Under the pieces are notes generated by a model that saw only the letters and a list, made by a program, of their open reading frames with translations, had not been told where the DNA came from and did no database searches. Position numbers and translations under genes: made by a program. Of a stretch of 56,077 nt of DNA, positions 24,520 through 31,388 are shown piece by piece. The DNA is taken from contig JAAURJ010000014.1 in NCBI GenBank assembly GCA_012032285.1, positions 1 through 56,077 of the forward strand, read 5' to 3'. How positions within the stretch are numbered: position 1 is the stretch's first letter; every line of letters begins with the position of its first letter. Source of the DNA: Sphingomonadales bacterium (GTDB lineage Bacteria; Pseudomonadota; Alphaproteobacteria; Sphingomonadales; Sphingomonadaceae).

Positions 24520-25032
24520 ATGACAGACGCTGCGCCAATTATTATTACTGCCGCTATGGGCGACGCGGATCAGGGCTGGGCCAATGGCTTGCGCAAAAAA
24601 TATTTCCCGCCTGAACGCAATTTTCTGGATGCGCATATCACGCTGTTCCATCATTTGCCGCCCGCGCATTTGCCGGAAATAAAAACTAGGCTTTCGGCTA
24701 TGGAGGGGCAGTATCCGCCGCCCACAAGCTGGCTAAGCGATGTCATGATGCTGGGCCGCGGTGTTGCCTACCGCGTTGAAAGCACGGAATTGATGGCCAT
24801 TCGTGAAGAATTGGCTGATGCTTTTTGCGGATTGCTAATCCCGCAGGATCAAGGAAAGCCGCGTTTCCATATCACCGTGCAGAATAAAGTGGAACCCGCC
24901 GCGGCAAAGGCGCTGCACCGGCAATTATCCGAAAGCTTTGAACCAAGGCAGATCGAGATTAAAGGACTGTCGGCTTTTTACTATCGCGGCGGGCCGTGGG
25001 ATGCGATTGGCAGTTGGTCTTTTCGCGGATGA
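24520..25032 (+). CDS. 2'-5' RNA ligase family protein (2H phosphoesterase)
   Basis: The 170-residue protein has the two HxT motifs of the 2H phosphoesterase superfamily, HITLFH and HITVQN, spaced as usual. Members hydrolyse or form 2'-5' phosphodiester or cyclic phosphate bonds in RNA or nucleotides. The substrate is unknown. It lies directly upstream of the tRNA-Met gene on the same strand, which may be chance. Confidence 0.82.
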   Translation: MTDAAPIIITAAMGDADQGWANGLRKKYFPPERNFLDAHITLFHHLPPAHLPEIKTRLSAMEGQYPPPTSWLSDVMMLGRGVAYRVESTELMAIREELADAFCGLLIPQDQGKPRFHITVQNKVEPAAAKALHRQLSESFEPRQIEIKGLSAFYYRGGPWDAIGSWSFRG

Positions 25033-25108: not shown

Positions 25109-25185
25109 GGCGAAGTAGCTCAGCTGGTTAGAGCGGTGGAATCATAATCCATAGGTCGGGGGTTCAAGTCCCTCCTTCGCTACCA
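25109..25185 (+). tRNA. tRNA-Met (anticodon CAU), elongator type
   Basis: The 77-base sequence folds into a full cloverleaf: acceptor GGCGAAG with CUUCGCU, D-arm with AGCUCAGCUGGUUAGAGC, anticodon stem GUGGA/UCCAU around the loop AUCAUAA, T-arm with GGGGGUUCAAGUCCCUC, and an encoded CCA end. The anticodon is CAU. I call it elongator Met because it resembles alphaproteobacterial elongator tRNA-Met and lacks initiator features; a tRNA-Ile2 with lysidine is the alternative. Its last 22 bases overlap the end of a protein gene on the other strand. Confidence 0.93.
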
Positions 25186-25994
25186 ATTTCCTGCAATATC
25201 TGTTCGAGCAACCATGTTTTTGCGGCATCATCGGCAAAGCTGTGCGATGCACTATCGGTGCTCGACAAGCAGATATTGGGATGACCGCGCACAGCAGCAA
25301 ACACATCGCTATTCCACGCGCCCATAAATGCCATGGCGGTCGTGTCCCGCTTTGCAAGGAGCAGGCGAACAGGGACATTTATAACGGACAGCTGTGCGGC
25401 CATTTGTATGGCAAGACCGCTAGGGGCATCCTTTTGGGTCGCTTTGGCAAGACCGCCCAGCAGTTTTTTCAGGTCAATTTTGCCGGTAAACAGGTCGATC
25501 AAGCTGCGGGGATTTTTGATCCTTTCCCAGTAGCGCGCACGGATAGCAGCGGCGCTTGGCGGAGCCGGGCTGTCCATTACATCGTCATCATCTTGTCTCT
25601 CGATCACCCATGGATTGGCCAGGATCAACCCGTCCAATTGCCCGTCATGGTATAAAGCCAGCGCGGCCGCTGCATCGCAATTGCCAAAAGCGATAATGCG
25701 CCGCACCGCTGGCACTTCACGGCGAAAGGCGGCGATGGCGGCGGCGATATCGGCTGCGCTGGATAAAAACCCGCCATTCACCCCTTCGCTATCGCCAATA
25801 CCTCGCCGGTCATAGCGCAGCACCGGATGGCCATATGCTGCAATCTGCGCCGCGCATTGCGCCTGCCCGCTATGGGCGCCGCTGCGTATTTCATTGCCGC
25901 CGCTGACGATCAACAGCCCGGTTTCGCCCGCCGCTTCATCCAGTGTTCCGGTGAGTTTATCATCCGCGCATTCTAAAATGATCATCCGCCGCAT
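25164..25994 (-). CDS. Exosortase A system-associated hydrolase 1 (alpha/beta hydrolase)
   Basis: The protein of about 276 residues has an alpha/beta-hydrolase fold with a DRRGIGDSEG strand-turn, a nucleophile-elbow-like AFGNCDAAAA in which Cys stands where Ser is usual, and a late HSFADD histidine. It resembles the TIGR03100-type hydrolases of exosortase-A gene clusters. I chose ATG 25994, which has GGAG six bases upstream; ATG 25985 would overlap the hydrolase 2 stop (ATGA). The last codons, for GSEGGT, are antisense to the tRNA-Met T-arm and acceptor. Its position after hydrolase 2 and the carrier protein supports the assignment. Confidence 0.82.
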   Translation of the reverse strand: MRRMIILECADDKLTGTLDEAAGETGLLIVSGGNEIRSGAHSGQAQCAAQIAAYGHPVLRYDRRGIGDSEGVNGGFLSSAADIAAAIAAFRREVPAVRRIIAFGNCDAAAALALYHDGQLDGLILANPWVIERQDDDDVMDSPAPPSAAAIRARYWERIKNPRSLIDLFTGKIDLKKLLGGLAKATQKDAPSGLAIQMAAQLSVINVPVRLLLAKRDTTAMAFMGAWNSDVFAAVRGHPNICLSSTDSASHSFADDAAKTWLLEQILQEIGSEGGT

Positions 25995-26683
25995 GATGCG
26001 CTCCAATTATCCAGATGCGTGGCCAGTGAGACGGACATTTGCGGGTCATCCTGTGGCTCTGCCCGCAGCCATAGGGCGCTGCCCTCCACGCCGTCTGAAC
26101 CCAAATTACAGAGGGTGAGTATGGGCAAGTCTTTGGCTTCGGCGCTTTCCAAAGAATGTAGCATTGCCGCGCTTAGCCTGTTTCCGGCAAGCTCAACAGG
26201 GGCCTTCTGGGCTGATGCGATCAATGCCTCAGAATGGGTCACAAGGCCCGCTTCCCTGTCCCCTGCAATACGCGCCCGGATCATAGTTTTTAATAGCTGC
26301 GCACCTTTGGCAGGCGCCAGGCGCCAATGCGGCAAATGCGGTATGCCATCGTCAATCAGGCATCCGCCGCGTATGGAGGCAATATGGGTTGCGCCAAACT
26401 GTGCCGCCGCAGCCGAGACCGCACCGCGCCAATGATCCAGATCCTGATCGCTGAGCGCCGCCATGCTTTCATTGTATCCAGGAAGGTCGGGCAGGAAAGA
26501 TTGCAGCCCGCGCCGTTCCAGATCGCGCATCACCTGAACCAGCACGCGGCGCATCCGGTTCATTTCATCAAACAACGGCTGGACTATCAGTATCCGCCGC
26601 TCTGCATCTGCTGTGCCAGCGGAAAGACAATGTTCGTCATGCCCGGCAAAATGATAGCGGACAGGGCGGACCGCTGCGCTCAA
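25982..26683 (-). CDS. Exosortase A system-associated hydrolase 2 (alpha/beta hydrolase-like)
   Basis: The 233-residue protein resembles the TIGR03101-type second hydrolase of exosortase-A clusters: PLFDEMNRMRRVLVQVMRDLERRG near the start and LPDLPGYNES after it. The nucleophile region reads IASIRGGCLID, without a clear Gly-x-Ser-x-Gly. Its ATG overlaps the carrier-protein stop (26680-26683, ATGA) and its end overlaps the hydrolase 1 start, so the three genes are translationally coupled. The substrate is unknown. Confidence 0.8.
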   Translation of the reverse strand: MSAAVRPVRYHFAGHDEHCLSAGTADAERRILIVQPLFDEMNRMRRVLVQVMRDLERRGLQSFLPDLPGYNESMAALSDQDLDHWRGAVSAAAAQFGATHIASIRGGCLIDDGIPHLPHWRLAPAKGAQLLKTMIRARIAGDREAGLVTHSEALIASAQKAPVELAGNRLSAAMLHSLESAEAKDLPILTLCNLGSDGVEGSALWLRAEPQDDPQMSVSLATHLDNWSASCGG

Positions 26684-27006
26684 GCCGCCCGCTTTGTCTC
26701 AGCAAATTCGAAAAGGCTGCCAAAGGTTTCAAACAGTTCGGCATCGACATCTTCGTCATCAATCACAATGCCCAGCCTGTCCTCCATTTCGGTAAGCAAG
26801 CCAGCGACCGCCATCGAGTCCAATTCGGGCAATGCACCGAATAATTCGGTTTCTGCGGTCATCTCCGCCACTTGTTCTGCCGATAATCCAAGCAGGTCGG
26901 ACAGGATAGAGCGCAAAATTGCGTCTGTGGATGGACCCTGAGAACCCGCCCCATTGTCTTGTGCCATGCCGATGGGATCATCTGTTCCGGTTGCGGCCTT
27001 TGTCAT
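26680..27006 (-). CDS. Acyl carrier protein of the exosortase-A-type module
   Basis: The 108-residue protein has an ACP fold after a flexible N-terminus of about 27 residues. The phosphopantetheine attachment serine is S64 in ALPELDSMAV, a DSM variant of the usual DSL. The helix-2 region GLLTEMEDRLGI is typical. It should carry an acyl or aminoacyl group as a thioester, loaded by the ligase encoded 1 kb away on the other strand. An alternative start is the ATG at codon 14. Confidence 0.87.
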   Translation of the reverse strand: MTKAATGTDDPIGMAQDNGAGSQGPSTDAILRSILSDLLGLSAEQVAEMTAETELFGALPELDSMAVAGLLTEMEDRLGIVIDDEDVDAELFETFGSLFEFAETKRAA

Positions 27007-27022
27007 GTTCGTCCCTGATTCG

Positions 27023-28060
27023 TTATTCTTTGCGCAGCTTATGGCGGATGATATGCGGCCAGTTCAACATATGATTGGGCCAGAATATATCAAGGGCATA
27101 GCGCGGGCGGACTTCTTCCATCCATTCGTTTTTATATGAATCGCTGCCTGTGCCGAAATCTATTTCGGAAACATGATCAATATCAATGCTATATTGGAAT
27201 AGTGCCGCCGATAACAAGGTGCCGGGCGATGCCGATAAATAGCGTTCGTCATGCGCAAGCTTGTGAATCAACGCGGTGCCGTTTTCGCTGGTCCAAAACT
27301 GCGCCGCCGCCGGTTTGCCGTCAATATAGGCAAGGCCAAGCCGCAGACAGCCTGCTGCCGCCTCTTGCCGGGCTAGGTCGCGCAGGAAATCCGGGCTGCC
27401 TTCGCTGGGTTTCCAACTGCGGGCATAGACTTTTTCATAATCGGCCCAGCTTTGTTCATCAAAATCTTTGGCGATACGGATGGAGACCATGCCTTTACTG
27501 CCTTTACGCTTAACCGTGCTGCGCAGCTGGCCGGGGCGCCCTTGCCAATATTCGTCAAAACTGCGGCCATTGACGCGCAGATAATGATTTTCATCGCACT
27601 GGCGTTTGACAACAACCCATCCGGCCTGTTCAAAGGCGGTGGCCGTCAGGCTGGCTGATCCGTCCTCATCGGGCAGAGGCGACAGCGTGATGCGCCGCGC
27701 GTGGCCCTGTGCCAGCAAGGCAATTTGCCGCAGCAAGGCGAGTTTTGTGACCTCGTCATATGATCCTGCAAATATTGGGCGAAATGTGAAATTATACCAG
27801 TTGGCCAGTGCATCATAGCATCCTGTAGCGCTTTGCATCAAAGGCAGCCACAAATCATGCTCGCCATCATGCGTCCGCAGCAAAAGCGGTTTGCGTCCGC
27901 GCAGCGCCATACGGTGCAGCGCATCGAGCCAATCGAGCCGGTCAAAAAGTGTTTTTTGCCGGTCCCTGTCCAGATTTCCTCGTGCAGCCGCTTGCGCATC
28001 AAGGAAATTATCGTGATATTCACCTTTGACCGGCAATTGAAAATGTCCTGCTACGCCCAT
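27023..28060 (-). CDS. GNAT/FemAB-like acyltransferase of the exosortase-A-type module
   Basis: The 345-residue protein is a BioF2-like GNAT-fold protein related to FemAB. Visible signatures are HYLRVNGRSFDEYWQGRPGQ, the AAAQFWTSENGTALIHKLAHDE strand-helix, and LLSAALFQYSIDIDHVSEIDFGTG. FemAB-like proteins transfer amino acids or acyl groups to cell-envelope acceptors. It precedes the carrier protein by 16 bases. The start is ATG 28060; an upstream in-frame TTG is less likely. The gene begins 26 bases from the divergent ligase. Confidence 0.85.
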   Translation of the reverse strand: MGVAGHFQLPVKGEYHDNFLDAQAAARGNLDRDRQKTLFDRLDWLDALHRMALRGRKPLLLRTHDGEHDLWLPLMQSATGCYDALANWYNFTFRPIFAGSYDEVTKLALLRQIALLAQGHARRITLSPLPDEDGSASLTATAFEQAGWVVVKRQCDENHYLRVNGRSFDEYWQGRPGQLRSTVKRKGSKGMVSIRIAKDFDEQSWADYEKVYARSWKPSEGSPDFLRDLARQEAAAGCLRLGLAYIDGKPAAAQFWTSENGTALIHKLAHDERYLSASPGTLLSAALFQYSIDIDHVSEIDFGTGSDSYKNEWMEEVRPRYALDIFWPNHMLNWPHIIRHKLRKE

Positions 28061-28086
28061 GTTAATGCCCAAAAAGATATGCCCTA

Positions 28087-29613
28087 ATGACGAATATGAT
28101 ACCAGACTTTCCGCTCGATCATTTGGCCCTTATGGGCCATGCGGACGCGCCTGCACTGTTTATCCAGAACCAAGTCTATAGTTATAAGGAGTTAAATCTC
28201 CGTATCGGACGGCTTGCTTTTTTGCTTAAGGCTGCGGGGCTGGGCGATGGTGACCGTGTGGCGGTGTGGACGGCCAAGGGGCTGATCGCTTGTATCATGC
28301 CGTTGGCGGCGGTCAGGGCAGGGTGCATTTATGTGCCGGTCAACCCGCTGTTAAAAGCACCTCAGCTGGCGCATATCATGGCCGATAGCGGGGCAAAGTT
28401 GCTCATTACAAATGCCGCGCGGGCCAAATCGCTGGGCAAGGACGATGTCGGTGCAGATGTGGCTTTATGGGATGAGGCGGAGAGTGCAGCGGCGCTAGAA
28501 GGCGAAGATGCGTCTTTTCTGGAGCCGCTTCCCGCCGGTCATGATACACAGAGGCTTGCTGCAATCCTCTACACATCGGGCAGCACGGGCCGGCCAAAGG
28601 GCGTAATGCTCTCGCATCGCAACCTAGCGCTGGGCGCGGTCAGCGTGGCACAATATCTAAAGCTTCAGGACGATGACCGCGTGCTCGCGGTACTCCCGCT
28701 TTCCTTTGATTATGGGCAAAATCAATTGCTGTCCATTTGGCGGGCCGGGGGCTGCGCCGTGCCGCTCGATTATTTAACCCCGCGCGATGTGGTCAAGGCC
28801 TGCGCCCGGCATCAGATCACCACGCTCGCCGCAGTGCCGCCCTTATGGGTGCAGCTCACCGAACTGGATTGGCCGCAGGAAGCGTCATCGTCAATGCGCC
28901 GCTTGACCAATAGCGGGGGTGCGTTGACCCCTGTGTTGGTGCGGGATTTGCGCCGGTTATTTGGTGCAAAGACAGATATTTACGCCATGTATGGTTTGAC
29001 CGAGGCATTCCGCTCTACCTATCTGGATCCGGCCCTGATTGATGATAACCCGGTCAGCATGGGCCGCGCCATTCCTTTTGCGGAAATCATGGTGGTTAGG
29101 GGCGATGGCCGCGCCGCAGCGGCGGAGGAAGCGGGGGAGCTGGTCCATGCCGGGCCGTTAGTGGCTCAGGGTTATTGGCAAGACACAGAGCGCACGGCAC
29201 AGCGTTTCAGGCCGGCTCCTGCTTATAGCCGCTATGGCGGTATCGCTGTTTATAGTGGTGATACTGTGCGGCAGGGCGCTGACGGGCTGCTATATTTTGT
29301 TGGCCGCGATGATGCGATGATTAAAACCAGCGGCAACCGCGTTTCACCGACGGAGATTGAGGAAGTGGCGGTGCAAAGCGGTGTTATCGCCGAAGCCTGC
29401 GCCCTTGGCCGCAGAGATGACCGTCTGGGTGAAGCGATTATCCTATTCGTCCGCGCAATGAACGGACAGTCTGCGGATGAAGTGCCGCTGCGCAGCCATT
29501 TGAAAAGCGCTTTACCCAATTTCATGCAACCCGCCGAAATCCTATGGCTGGACGCATTTCCCAAAAACGCCAATGGCAAATTGGACCGAAATGCGTTGGC
29601 GGAACGGATTTAA
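28087..29613 (+). CDS. Acyl-CoA/acyl-ACP ligase (AMP-forming), exosortase A system-associated
   Basis: The 508-residue ANL-family enzyme has the ATP-binding YTSGSTGRPKG (162-172), YGLTEAFRS, the YSGDTV and GRDDAMIKTSGNRVSPTEIEE motifs, and the C-terminal catalytic lysine K498 in NANGKLDR. It adenylates a carboxylic acid or amino acid and passes it to CoA or a carrier protein. It resembles the TIGR03098 ligases that sit next to a PLP decarboxylase in exosortase-A clusters, as it does here. The substrate is not known. Confidence 0.9.
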   Translation: MTNMIPDFPLDHLALMGHADAPALFIQNQVYSYKELNLRIGRLAFLLKAAGLGDGDRVAVWTAKGLIACIMPLAAVRAGCIYVPVNPLLKAPQLAHIMADSGAKLLITNAARAKSLGKDDVGADVALWDEAESAAALEGEDASFLEPLPAGHDTQRLAAILYTSGSTGRPKGVMLSHRNLALGAVSVAQYLKLQDDDRVLAVLPLSFDYGQNQLLSIWRAGGCAVPLDYLTPRDVVKACARHQITTLAAVPPLWVQLTELDWPQEASSSMRRLTNSGGALTPVLVRDLRRLFGAKTDIYAMYGLTEAFRSTYLDPALIDDNPVSMGRAIPFAEIMVVRGDGRAAAAEEAGELVHAGPLVAQGYWQDTERTAQRFRPAPAYSRYGGIAVYSGDTVRQGADGLLYFVGRDDAMIKTSGNRVSPTEIEEVAVQSGVIAEACALGRRDDRLGEAIILFVRAMNGQSADEVPLRSHLKSALPNFMQPAEILWLDAFPKNANGKLDRNALAERI

Positions 29614-29625
29614 CCATTTATCGCT

Positions 29626-30887
29626 ATGGTCGAAACGATGAACGAAGCTGCAATGATAAAAGCAAAGCCATTTGGTCCCATCCCGGCCGGTTATGAAATG
29701 ATGCAGGGGCAACTGGCCATTGGCGAGCGCATGGCAACTCAATGGGTGGAAGAGGCAGGGATACCCCGCTCTTTGTCTATTCCCGTGCCCACTTGCAGCG
29801 CCGTGTGGCCGATCTTCGCGCTGCTTTGCCCAGCCGGGTCGCCATCCATTATGCGATGAAGGGCAATCCGTTTCCGCCCTTGCTCCGCTTCATGAACGCT
29901 TTGGTGGACGGGTTTGATCTGGCATCGGGCGGAGAGATGGAATTGGCGCTGACCGCAGGCGTGGCTGCAGACAAGATGAGCTTTGCAGGGCCAGGCAAGC
30001 GTGACCGCGAGCTGGAGGCGGCGATTGCACGGGGTGTAACTATCAATTTGGAAAGCGAGGGCGAGGCGGGCAGAGCGATTGATATTGCCAACCGGTTCGG
30101 TATCACGCCAAAGCTTGCTGTGCGTGTCAATCCTAGTTTTGACCTGAAAGGGTCCGGGATGAAAATGGGCGGCGGAGCAAAGCAATTTGGCGTAGATGCA
30201 GAGCGCGTGCCCGCTTTGGTCAAGCAGATATTGGAACGCGGCGCAGATTGGCGGGGCTTTCACATATATGCTGGATCGCAGGCGCTCAACGCCGATGCAA
30301 TTATAGAGATGCAGGCGGCAACGCTCGCATTGGTAACAGATTTGACCGCCGAAATTGGAACGCCGCCCGTGCACGTCAATCTGGGCGGCGGTTTTGGGAT
30401 ACCCTATTTCGCCGGGGATGAGCCGCTGGATATTTATGCGGTCGGTTCGGCATTGGACGCTGCGCTCGGCGCTATGCCAGACGATTTGGCCAATACCGGT
30501 TATTGCATTGAACTGGGTCGTTATTTGGTGGGGGAAGCAGGTGTCTATCTGACCCGCATTATCGATCGGAAAGTCAGCCATGGCGAGACATTCCTTGTTA
30601 CCGATGGCGGGCTGCACCATCAATTGGCGGCAAGCGGGAATTTTGGCACTGTTATCCGGCGCAATTATCCTATCGCCATTGCCACGCGGTTTGATGCCAA
30701 AGCGGAGGAGGTGGTTTCAGTGACGGGATGTCTGTGCACCCCGCTCGATATGCTGGGCAATCATGTGCATTTGCCCCGCGCAGATGTGGGCGATCTGGTC
30801 GCCATATTTTGCGCCGGTGCTTATGGTGCCTCCGCCAGCCCTGCCAATTTTTTGGAGCAGGGCGCGGCGAAAGAGATTTTGGTTTAA
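29626..30887 (+). CDS. PLP-dependent decarboxylase, exosortase A system-associated (one frameshift)
   Basis: The protein of about 421 residues is a fold-III (alanine racemase-like) decarboxylase related to ornithine and diaminopimelate decarboxylases. The PLP lysine is in IHYAMKGNPF, the phosphate-binding HVNLGGGFGIPYF and GLHHQLAASGNFG follow, and the catalytic cysteine is in GCLCTPLD. The N-terminal KPFGPIPAGYEM is in another frame; changing GGG to GGGG at 29758-29760 joins it as EEAGDTPLFVYSRAHL. Start is uncertain among ATG 29626, 29638 and 29656. It follows the ligase by 12 bases. Confidence 0.88.
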
Positions 30888-30908: not shown

Positions 30909-31388
30909 TTAAGCGACTTTGGCTTCTTCACCAAGTAACAGCGGGTCATTTTTGCCGATATCAATGGTGGATTTGCCGATATTGGGCGATTTGGCGGTGC
31001 GCTGCTTAAATTTGCCATCAACCTGTGCACCGGGTGCTATCGACAAATTCTGGTAAGTCACATCGCCGATAATACGGGCGCTGGCTTCTATGACCAACTC
31101 CAATGCTTCGATGGATCCTTCCACCTTGCCTGACAAACGCGCATTTTCGGCGCTCACCTTGCCTTTGATGACGCTGCTTTCGCCTTGGACGAGTGAGCCG
31201 CAGGCGACATCACCTTGCACGGTGCCGTCAATATGCAAATCCACCTTTGCAGTTAAATTGCCGACAATCTCAACATCCGATGCGATCATCGAAAAAGTAT
31301 GCCCTGAACCGCTCATATTGTTACGACTTCTGGCCTGAGGTGCGCTGGGCACGGTTGGTTCCGGCGAGGGCTTGGACTTCGAGAACAT
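30909..31388 (-). CDS. Bactofilin
   Basis: The 159-residue protein has a central bactofilin beta-helix (about 30-135, with SDVEIVGNLTAKVDLHIDG-type rungs) between disordered ends. Bactofilins polymerise without nucleotides and organise cell-wall enzymes. GGAGG nine bases before ATG 31388 strongly supports this start, which makes the first 68 bases overlap the end of the upstream M23 peptidase gene in another frame. A later ATG at codon 25 would avoid the overlap but has no good ribosome-binding site. Pairing with an M23 peptidase is a known bactofilin arrangement. Confidence 0.92.
   Translation of the reverse strand: MFSKSKPSPEPTVPSAPQARSRNNMSGSGHTFSMIASDVEIVGNLTAKVDLHIDGTVQGDVACGSLVQGESSVIKGKVSAENARLSGKVEGSIEALELVIEASARIIGDVTYQNLSIAPGAQVDGKFKQRTAKSPNIGKSTIDIGKNDPLLLGEEAKVA

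Follow-up and report, generated by a model that had tools for sequence, protein, structure and literature searches.

For vicenistatin biosynthesis, VinN has been described to load methylaspartate on the acyl carrier protein (ACP) VinL, after which VinO decarboxylates only the ACP-bound form, and FlvN, the VinN homologue of fluvirucin biosynthesis, takes Asp (PMC11284099). In VinN, which accepts 3-methylaspartate or Asp as a beta-amino acid, the key residues are D230, F231, S299, K330 and R331 (PMC11253843). In the butirosin pathway, BtrK is an L-glutamyl-ACP decarboxylase, whose substrate is glutamate on the carrier BtrI (PMC7857480). Here, we describe a set of six genes from a Sphingomonadales bacterium (assembly GCA_012032285.1), which lies at 25164..30887 of the window, i.e., the 56,077 nucleotides analyzed of contig JAAURJ010000014.1. 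Three of these genes, encoding an ACP, an AMP-forming ligase and a pyridoxal phosphate (PLP) decarboxylase, are called the core in the following. Judged by its sequence and distribution, this core would likely make beta-alanyl-ACP, and thereby beta-alanine, and replace PanD.

The set belongs to the group covered by the models TIGR03098-TIGR03101, which are of the hypoth_equivalog type and state the function only as an enzyme class. In line with this accessory group of the XrtA/PEP-CTERM system, three of the window genes pass the family cut-offs, and the usual site of the set is within the XrtA locus. In contrast to what is expected of an XrtA accessory group, the core persists without an exosortase match. 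As an annotation group the set is known, and it is its site here that is unusual. In the parts of the open-licence literature covered, no publication stating the proposed beta-alanine route for the core was found. If it is true, a function could be given to families so far annotated only as exosortase A system-associated, and the source of beta-alanine for vitamin B5 and coenzyme A (CoA) in Sphingomonadales without panD would be explained. To our knowledge, it would also be the first natural-product style carrier chemistry, in which a substrate is loaded and decarboxylated on a carrier, in primary vitamin metabolism.

With VinN-VinL-VinO and FlvN the core has in common a stand-alone adenylating enzyme, a stand-alone ACP and a proposed PLP-dependent decarboxylation on the ACP. 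These are systems for polyketide antibiotics, whereas the core is found at an envelope locus or isolated among housekeeping genes, seemingly as a part of primary metabolism. The likeness to BtrK-BtrI lies in the decarboxylase, which is of the carrier-bound amino acid type; BtrK, however, converts glutamate to gamma-aminobutyric acid (GABA) in an antibiotic pathway. The ligase of the butirosin side chain, BtrJ, is an ATP-grasp enzyme and not of the AMP-forming type.

PanD is a single pyruvoyl enzyme that acts on free aspartate. The proposed net reaction of the core, from aspartate to beta-alanine, is the same, and both are exchanged at one chromosomal site, but PanD belongs to a different family (PF02261) and requires neither a carrier nor ATP. 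A further alternative for a missing panD in alphaproteobacteria is the AmaB uracil route of Rhizobium etli; this route uses other enzymes, and in Erythrobacter sp. SD-21 neither PYD2 nor PYD3 is scored as present (PMC7142369).

Active sites of the core proteins

The ligase (28087..29613, plus strand) reaches 645.1 bits on TIGR03098, with a cut-off of 592.35. Over its whole length, it most resembles amino acid adenylating domains and malonyl-CoA synthetase, and its pocket segment is nearest to VinN. Here, the equivalents of the five key residues of VinN are D208, Y209, S276, F308 and R309. Conservation was read from an alignment of 67 ligase rows, which contains one genome twice and omits two loci in which the ligase is short or missing. 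The Asp at the place of VinN D230 and the Arg at the place of R331 are present in all 67 rows, and the place of S299 is always occupied by Ser or Thr (S 40, T 27). At the place of F231, a Tyr or Phe is found in 48 of the 67 rows, including all 28 rows from core-only loci, and an Ala in the other 19. Like VinN, the ligase has the D230, S299 and R331 pocket residues; unlike VinN, it carries a Phe instead of K330, and this in 67 of 67 rows (VinO was left out of this comparison). The conserved Arg presumably holds the free carboxylate of the substrate. The pocket is predicted to be of the type in which an acidic amino acid is bound as a beta-amino acid.

At positions 209 and 276 two pocket types, Tyr/Phe with Ser/Thr and Ala with Thr, are split by lineage and may mean two substrates. 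A fatty-acid ligase identity was set aside, since the pocket is of the amino-acid type. LgrA was rejected as the closest relative of the ligase, since its 293.9 bits are a sum over two domains, of which the best reaches 165.8 bits.

The PLP decarboxylase (29742..30887, plus strand) reaches 562.7 bits on TIGR03099 (cut-off 478.45), even without the first 23 profile positions. Its best solved relative is BtrK with 234 bits, compared to 125 bits for the best diaminopimelate (DAP) decarboxylase. Besides the PLP-binding Lys40, it contains the Cys332-Thr-Pro loop, a Cys-Thr-Pro motif which is common to BtrK and the window protein, whereas DAP decarboxylase shows Cys-Glu-Thr there in the alignment. 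This loop is present in 68 of 69 decarboxylase rows, the remaining one reading C-S-P. By this kinship, the decarboxylase is assigned to the BtrK-like type acting on a carrier-bound amino acid. From the chemistry, an alpha-decarboxylation on the carrier would require loading via the side chain, because the alpha-carboxylate must remain free, and Asp would then give beta-alanyl-ACP.

The ACP of the core (26680..27006, minus strand; PF00550) passes no specific NCBIfam cut-off. Its phosphopantetheine site, Ser64 in the motif LDSMAV, is kept in 38 of 38 aligned rows. A preliminary description of the window had sketched a different chemistry, with an amino or fatty acid activated by the ligase, an amine made by the decarboxylase and both joined or attached to an envelope glycan by the GNAT protein. 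This fits poorly to a BtrK-like decarboxylase for carrier-bound substrates and a VinN-like pocket for acidic amino acids.

Retention of the core without an exosortase

Among 196 genomes of the order, the core was scored as present when a decarboxylase match exceeded 300 bits, which includes 130 genomes over the curated cut-off and four below it (G107, G036, G006 and G088). By this measure 134 genomes have the decarboxylase and 127 have XrtA; both are present in 102, the decarboxylase only in 32, XrtA only in 25 and neither in 37. Furthermore, 23 of the 32 XrtA-less decarboxylase genomes do not belong to the 150 genomes with any PF09721 exosortase match.

For 30 of these 32 genomes the locus was fetched (G023 and G036 were left out). 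Genes at the loci were called by tblastn in the surrounding 10 kb or so, using a small number of query proteins, by which diverged copies could be missed, and the absence of GNAT and hydrolase genes refers to this locus and not to the whole genome. In 27 of the 30 loci, only the ACP, the ligase and the decarboxylase of the six genes are present, and seven of these 27 still contain one or two exopolysaccharide (EPS) genes, for an ATPase or a deacetylase. The other three are L042 (G117) with all six genes, L035 (G006) with hydrolase 1 and EPS genes, and L050 without an ACP match. The set had been put forward in the preliminary description as one that occurs free of an exosortase. This stands for the three-gene core but fails for the six genes as a unit, for which L042 is the only case among the 30 loci.

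A tree was calculated by a quick method from the joined ligase and decarboxylase rows of 110 loci (L103, without a ligase, fell out of the 111, and at least two genomes are represented twice). On this tree, 11 changes between core-only and full sets are found, nine of which are forced by starred branches. All 28 core-only rows retain the invariant positions that were tested, three of them in the ligase and eight in the decarboxylase. The core has been retained several times while the other genes were lost, as follows from the 27 core-only loci and the 11 changes on the tree.

Besides this survey, the best 80 named loci among the matches listed were compared, and 62 with full flanks remained after 18 with short flanks were dropped. 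Of these, 45 contain the six genes together with EPS genes, seven the six genes without EPS genes nearby, nine the core alone and one has five genes with EPS genes. In the phylum, a decarboxylase over the cut-off was found in 32 of 397 sampled genomes. Outside the order, nine of ten sampled genomes with an over-cut-off core carry XrtA.

L102 (G300) harbors the core alone in another alphaproteobacterial family, without XrtA or panD, and groups on the tree with the set of one genome of family f8. L110 and L114 are weaker TIGR03099 relatives near several ligase-like frames and are probably parts of nonribosomal peptide synthetase (NRPS)-like clusters.

Distribution of panD and the core in Sphingomonadales

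Within the 196 genomes, panD (PF02261) is present in 23, namely in one of the 134 genomes with the decarboxylase versus 22 of the 62 without it (Fisher 9e-12). The sole overlap, G107, is a draft of 76% completeness, in which the decarboxylase follows several ligase-like frames, has no ACP match and does not show the core layout; we read this setting as NRPS-like. XrtA was considered as the partner that panD tracks instead of the core and was rejected, as panD occurs in 17 of 127 genomes with XrtA and in 6 of 69 without (p 0.36). Of the 25 genomes with XrtA and without the core, 16 carry panD.

An exchange in place is seen in genus g12, where 11 genomes have the core without panD and three have panD without the core. 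One of these three, G153, has the gene order def-recR-fmt-truA-panD-trxB, which agrees, flanks included, with that of sister genomes except that the core stands there instead of panD. In G195 panD adjoins truA, and in G176 it is separated from trxB by 5 kb, with the second flank beyond the fetched stretch. Compared to the panD protein of G153, those of the other two genomes show 73% and 75% identity, and since they are this similar, the swap of panD for the core in this genus may be one event.

The gene panC is present in 131 of the 134 core genomes; neither panC nor panD was found near the core in the fetched stretches L034-L094. For Erythrobacter sp. SD-21, a published table lists ilvC (KAR), panB (KPHMT), panC (PS) and PYD1 as present and ADC, PYD2, PYD3, AAM, GabT and GAD as absent (PMC7142369). 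This strain (L215) has a bare core with one EPS-type ATPase beside it. The same work counts ADC in 37 of 204 alphaproteobacteria and proposes uracil breakdown for rhizobia, and in its passages considered here no beta-alanine source is named for Sphingomonadales (PMC7142369).

In genus g49 of family f8 (n=13), panC is absent in 12 of 13 genomes and both panD and the core in 13 of 13; these are likely pantothenate auxotrophs. The pocket type (Tyr versus Ala at position 209) was also tried as a separator for panD outside the order, but gave no clear split, with panD in 2 of 19 Tyr and 5 of 18 Ala genomes; in this comparison no ligase was found in 7 of 44 loci, four of which are panD-positive.

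Proposed route and alternative explanations

In the proposed route, an acidic alpha-amino acid, with L-aspartate as the likeliest one, would be adenylated by the ligase on the carboxylate of its side chain and transferred to the phosphopantetheine arm of the ACP. There, the alpha-carboxylate would be stripped by the PLP decarboxylase, resulting in beta-alanyl-ACP. In Sphingomonadales without panD, the core would thereby supply the beta-alanine for pantothenate and CoA, and because of this supply the three genes would be kept after loss of the exosortase locus. The GNAT protein and the hydrolases would probably move or release the beta-alanyl group for an XrtA-linked envelope glycan; in genomes that have lost XrtA, their genes are mostly not found next to the core.

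Several observations weigh against a role of the core as the general substitute for PanD. In the order, 26 genomes have panC without panD and without the core; some of these are partial assemblies, but 11 are at least 99% complete. Therefore, other sources of, or needs for, beta-alanine must exist. Three of the genomes with panC, G083, G131 and G181, belong to the genus of the window, are 99-100% complete and have neither panD nor the core nor an exosortase match. In the order of G404, panD is present in 11 of 38 core genomes compared to 94 of 162 others (p 0.002), so it is depleted and not excluded. In the first sample outside the order of the window, panD was found in none of ten genomes with an over-cut-off core, in 5 of 16 with a weaker decarboxylase match and in 29 of 54 without one. 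A strict exclusion of core and panD holds only in the window's order. Here, the association largely follows clades, one family and one genus, and the p-values ignore kinship and are thus inflated; the in-place swap and the repeated retention of the core do not rest on these counts. Furthermore, the 19 of 67 ligases with an Ala at the place of the VinN Phe suggest that substrates may differ between lineages, the core-only loci have no hydrolases nearby to account for the release of beta-alanine from the ACP, and a related core on a megaplasmid of some Sinorhizobium meliloti strains lies within a glycosyltransferase cluster, which fits a role in glycans.

An alternative explanation is that the product of the core is an omega-aminoacyl-ACP (beta-alanyl or other) that serves only the XrtA envelope glycan or anchor, the link to panD being a by-product of clade history. 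This would be in line with the usual site of the set beside XrtA/EPS genes (45 of the 62 full-flank loci), with the XrtA found in nine of ten over-cut-off core genomes outside the order, with the glycosyltransferase and deacetylase cluster around the S. meliloti core and with the panD-positive core genomes in the second order. Nevertheless, the core repeatedly outlives the XrtA locus, 23 core genomes being without a PF09721 match, in the window's order it is the core, not XrtA, to which the occurrence of panD is related, and in genus g12 panD occupies the very slot of the core, which makes this explanation rather unlikely. A combination of both uses is a still weaker candidate to which we give a small chance. 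Here, beta-alanyl-ACP would serve CoA synthesis as well as the exosortase, the GNAT protein would transfer the beta-alanyl group to the glycan or lipid of the XrtA system, and the free amine of this group would be the nucleophile to which exosortase A joins PEP-CTERM proteins, comparable to the pentaglycine that serves sortase. After the loss of sorting, the core would be kept for CoA alone.

The kinship to BtrK also allows for glutamate as the substrate, with GABA-ACP or a similar-sized amino acid as the product and no role in CoA synthesis. The small residue at the place of VinN F231 in 19 ligases may make room for it, but all core-only rows are among the 48 with a Tyr or Phe there, like the Asp-type VinN, and GABA would not account for the panD swap, so that glutamate appears very unlikely. 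Even less credence is given to a single stand-alone conjugate pathway of all six genes, in which an amino or fatty acid is activated by the ligase and bound to the carrier, a free amine is produced separately by the decarboxylase, and the two are coupled by the GNAT protein. The GNAT gene indeed adjoins the carrier gene in 52 of the 62 full-flank loci. N-acyl amino acid synthases were reportedly linked to the PEP-CTERM system by Craig et al. in 2011, which we count in favor of such a pathway. In contrast, 29 of the 30 XrtA-less loci have no GNAT match nearby, and the pocket contains the Asp and Arg of VinN, the former holding the amino group, unlike an expected fatty-acid pocket. The route to beta-alanine via a carrier-bound aspartate is therefore the reading that we prefer.

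The S. meliloti megaplasmid core (L229, 7917-11046; 27 records) has the order ligase-decarboxylase-ACP and an Ala-type pocket, and no exosortase is annotated in its stretch. On an Aureimonas plasmid a related core is likewise located near glycosyltransferases, which also points to a use in glycans.

Genomic context of the six-gene set

The genome from which the window originates comprises 2.78 Mb on 96 contigs and is 97% complete. No exosortase or EPS proteins were found among the window proteins scanned, which covered part of the window's open reading frames (ORFs), so that the absence of an exosortase from the window, as previously stated, is borne out to this extent. The genome itself does contain an exosortase, as a genome-wide search gave a single TIGR03109 (XrtA) match with 329.7 bits on contig C90 (C90:16280-17056). 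For C90, bases 1-40000 of 67583 were covered, with family scans of 20 ORFs between C90:8443 and C90:30750. These revealed a standard XrtA/EPS locus with an amidotransferase (TIGR03108), XrtA, TIGR03087, a FemAB protein (TIGR03019), a deacetylase, an ATPase, a tyrosine kinase as well as chain-length and export proteins.

The preliminary description would have been contradicted by a second copy of the six genes at such a locus and by the absence of the set from relatives. However, the six window proteins gave no tblastn match on C90 bases 1-40000, only one match to the TIGR03099 decarboxylase family at E 1e-90 or better exists in the genome, and the set recurs in relatives. Despite the full XrtA locus, only two PEP-CTERM motif matches were obtained in the genome (C53:30681-30752 and C90:62891-62962), with a short motif model that also matches 7 of 14 control genomes at E 1 and is over its cut-off in two of them.

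The window shares with three close relatives, L149, L154 and L159 (Sphingorhabdus and kin), the position of the six genes beside a bactofilin and an M23 peptidase gene and not beside EPS genes. Because of this shared site, the set has probably been shifted as a unit in the line of the window; we infer that it was the set and not the XrtA locus that moved. In G180, from the same genus, the set and XrtA lie on one contig, at 0.33 and 2.63 Mb, respectively, and no bactofilin match was found near the set.

Accessory and neighboring genes in the window

The gene content, positions and strands as well as the neighboring tRNA and bactofilin agree with the preliminary description according to the sequence and Pfam/NCBIfam scans: hydrolase 1, hydrolase 2, the ACP and the GNAT protein are encoded on the minus strand, the ligase and the decarboxylase on the plus strand. 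Its assignment to the TIGR03098-TIGR03101 group is likewise supported, with the reservation that hydrolase 2 does not reach its family cut-off.

Hydrolase 1 (25164..26006) is an alpha/beta hydrolase with 211.5 bits on TIGR03100 (cut-off 168.45). Its nucleophile elbow GNCDAA follows the pattern GNCD[AG]A found in 72 of 73 rows, and His255 is conserved, by which it appears suited to acyl transfer or release. Hydrolase 2 (25982..26683) obtains only 38.2 bits on TIGR03101 (cut-off 202.75) and is regarded by sequence as a diverged relative occupying the same place. Here, the 12 commonest elbow patterns, which account for 47 of 73 rows, show A, C, G or T at the nucleophile position, so the nucleophile seems to be lost and the protein is probably not catalytic. 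Perhaps the two represent a working enzyme with an inactive partner.

The GNAT protein (27023..28072; PF13480, Acetyltransf_6) has an uncertain start codon, which may be internal. It had been described as FemAB-like, but without any NCBIfam match it does not belong to the XrtA FemAB family TIGR03019, whose member in this genome is the protein on C90. Its sequence is conserved across loci of Sphingomonadales, of which 9 and 43 were aligned, and no relative was found by sequence among solved structures. The GNAT protein and the hydrolases are add-ons to the core, and hydrolase 1 is usually seen together with EPS genes.

The frame of the decarboxylase is broken near 29735, and the first ~35 codons (about 29626-29740) lie in a different frame. 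In five related loci (L149, L150, L154, L159 and L192) the frame is intact, and the break is either a slip of the draft assembly or a recent mutation. From the ATG at 29742 the protein comprises 381 amino acids, including the checked catalytic residues.

On the right, the set is followed by the bactofilin (30909..31388, minus strand), which is also the neighbor in L149, L154 and L159 and lies outside the pathway, and then by the M23 peptidase, proA and nadD. Its left edge is formed by a tRNA-Met (25109..25185, plus strand), which shares 22 bases with the 3' end of hydrolase 1. Beside this tRNA, a 2'-5' RNA ligase-like protein is encoded at 24520-25032, relatives of which are also present within several of the fetched core or six-gene loci.

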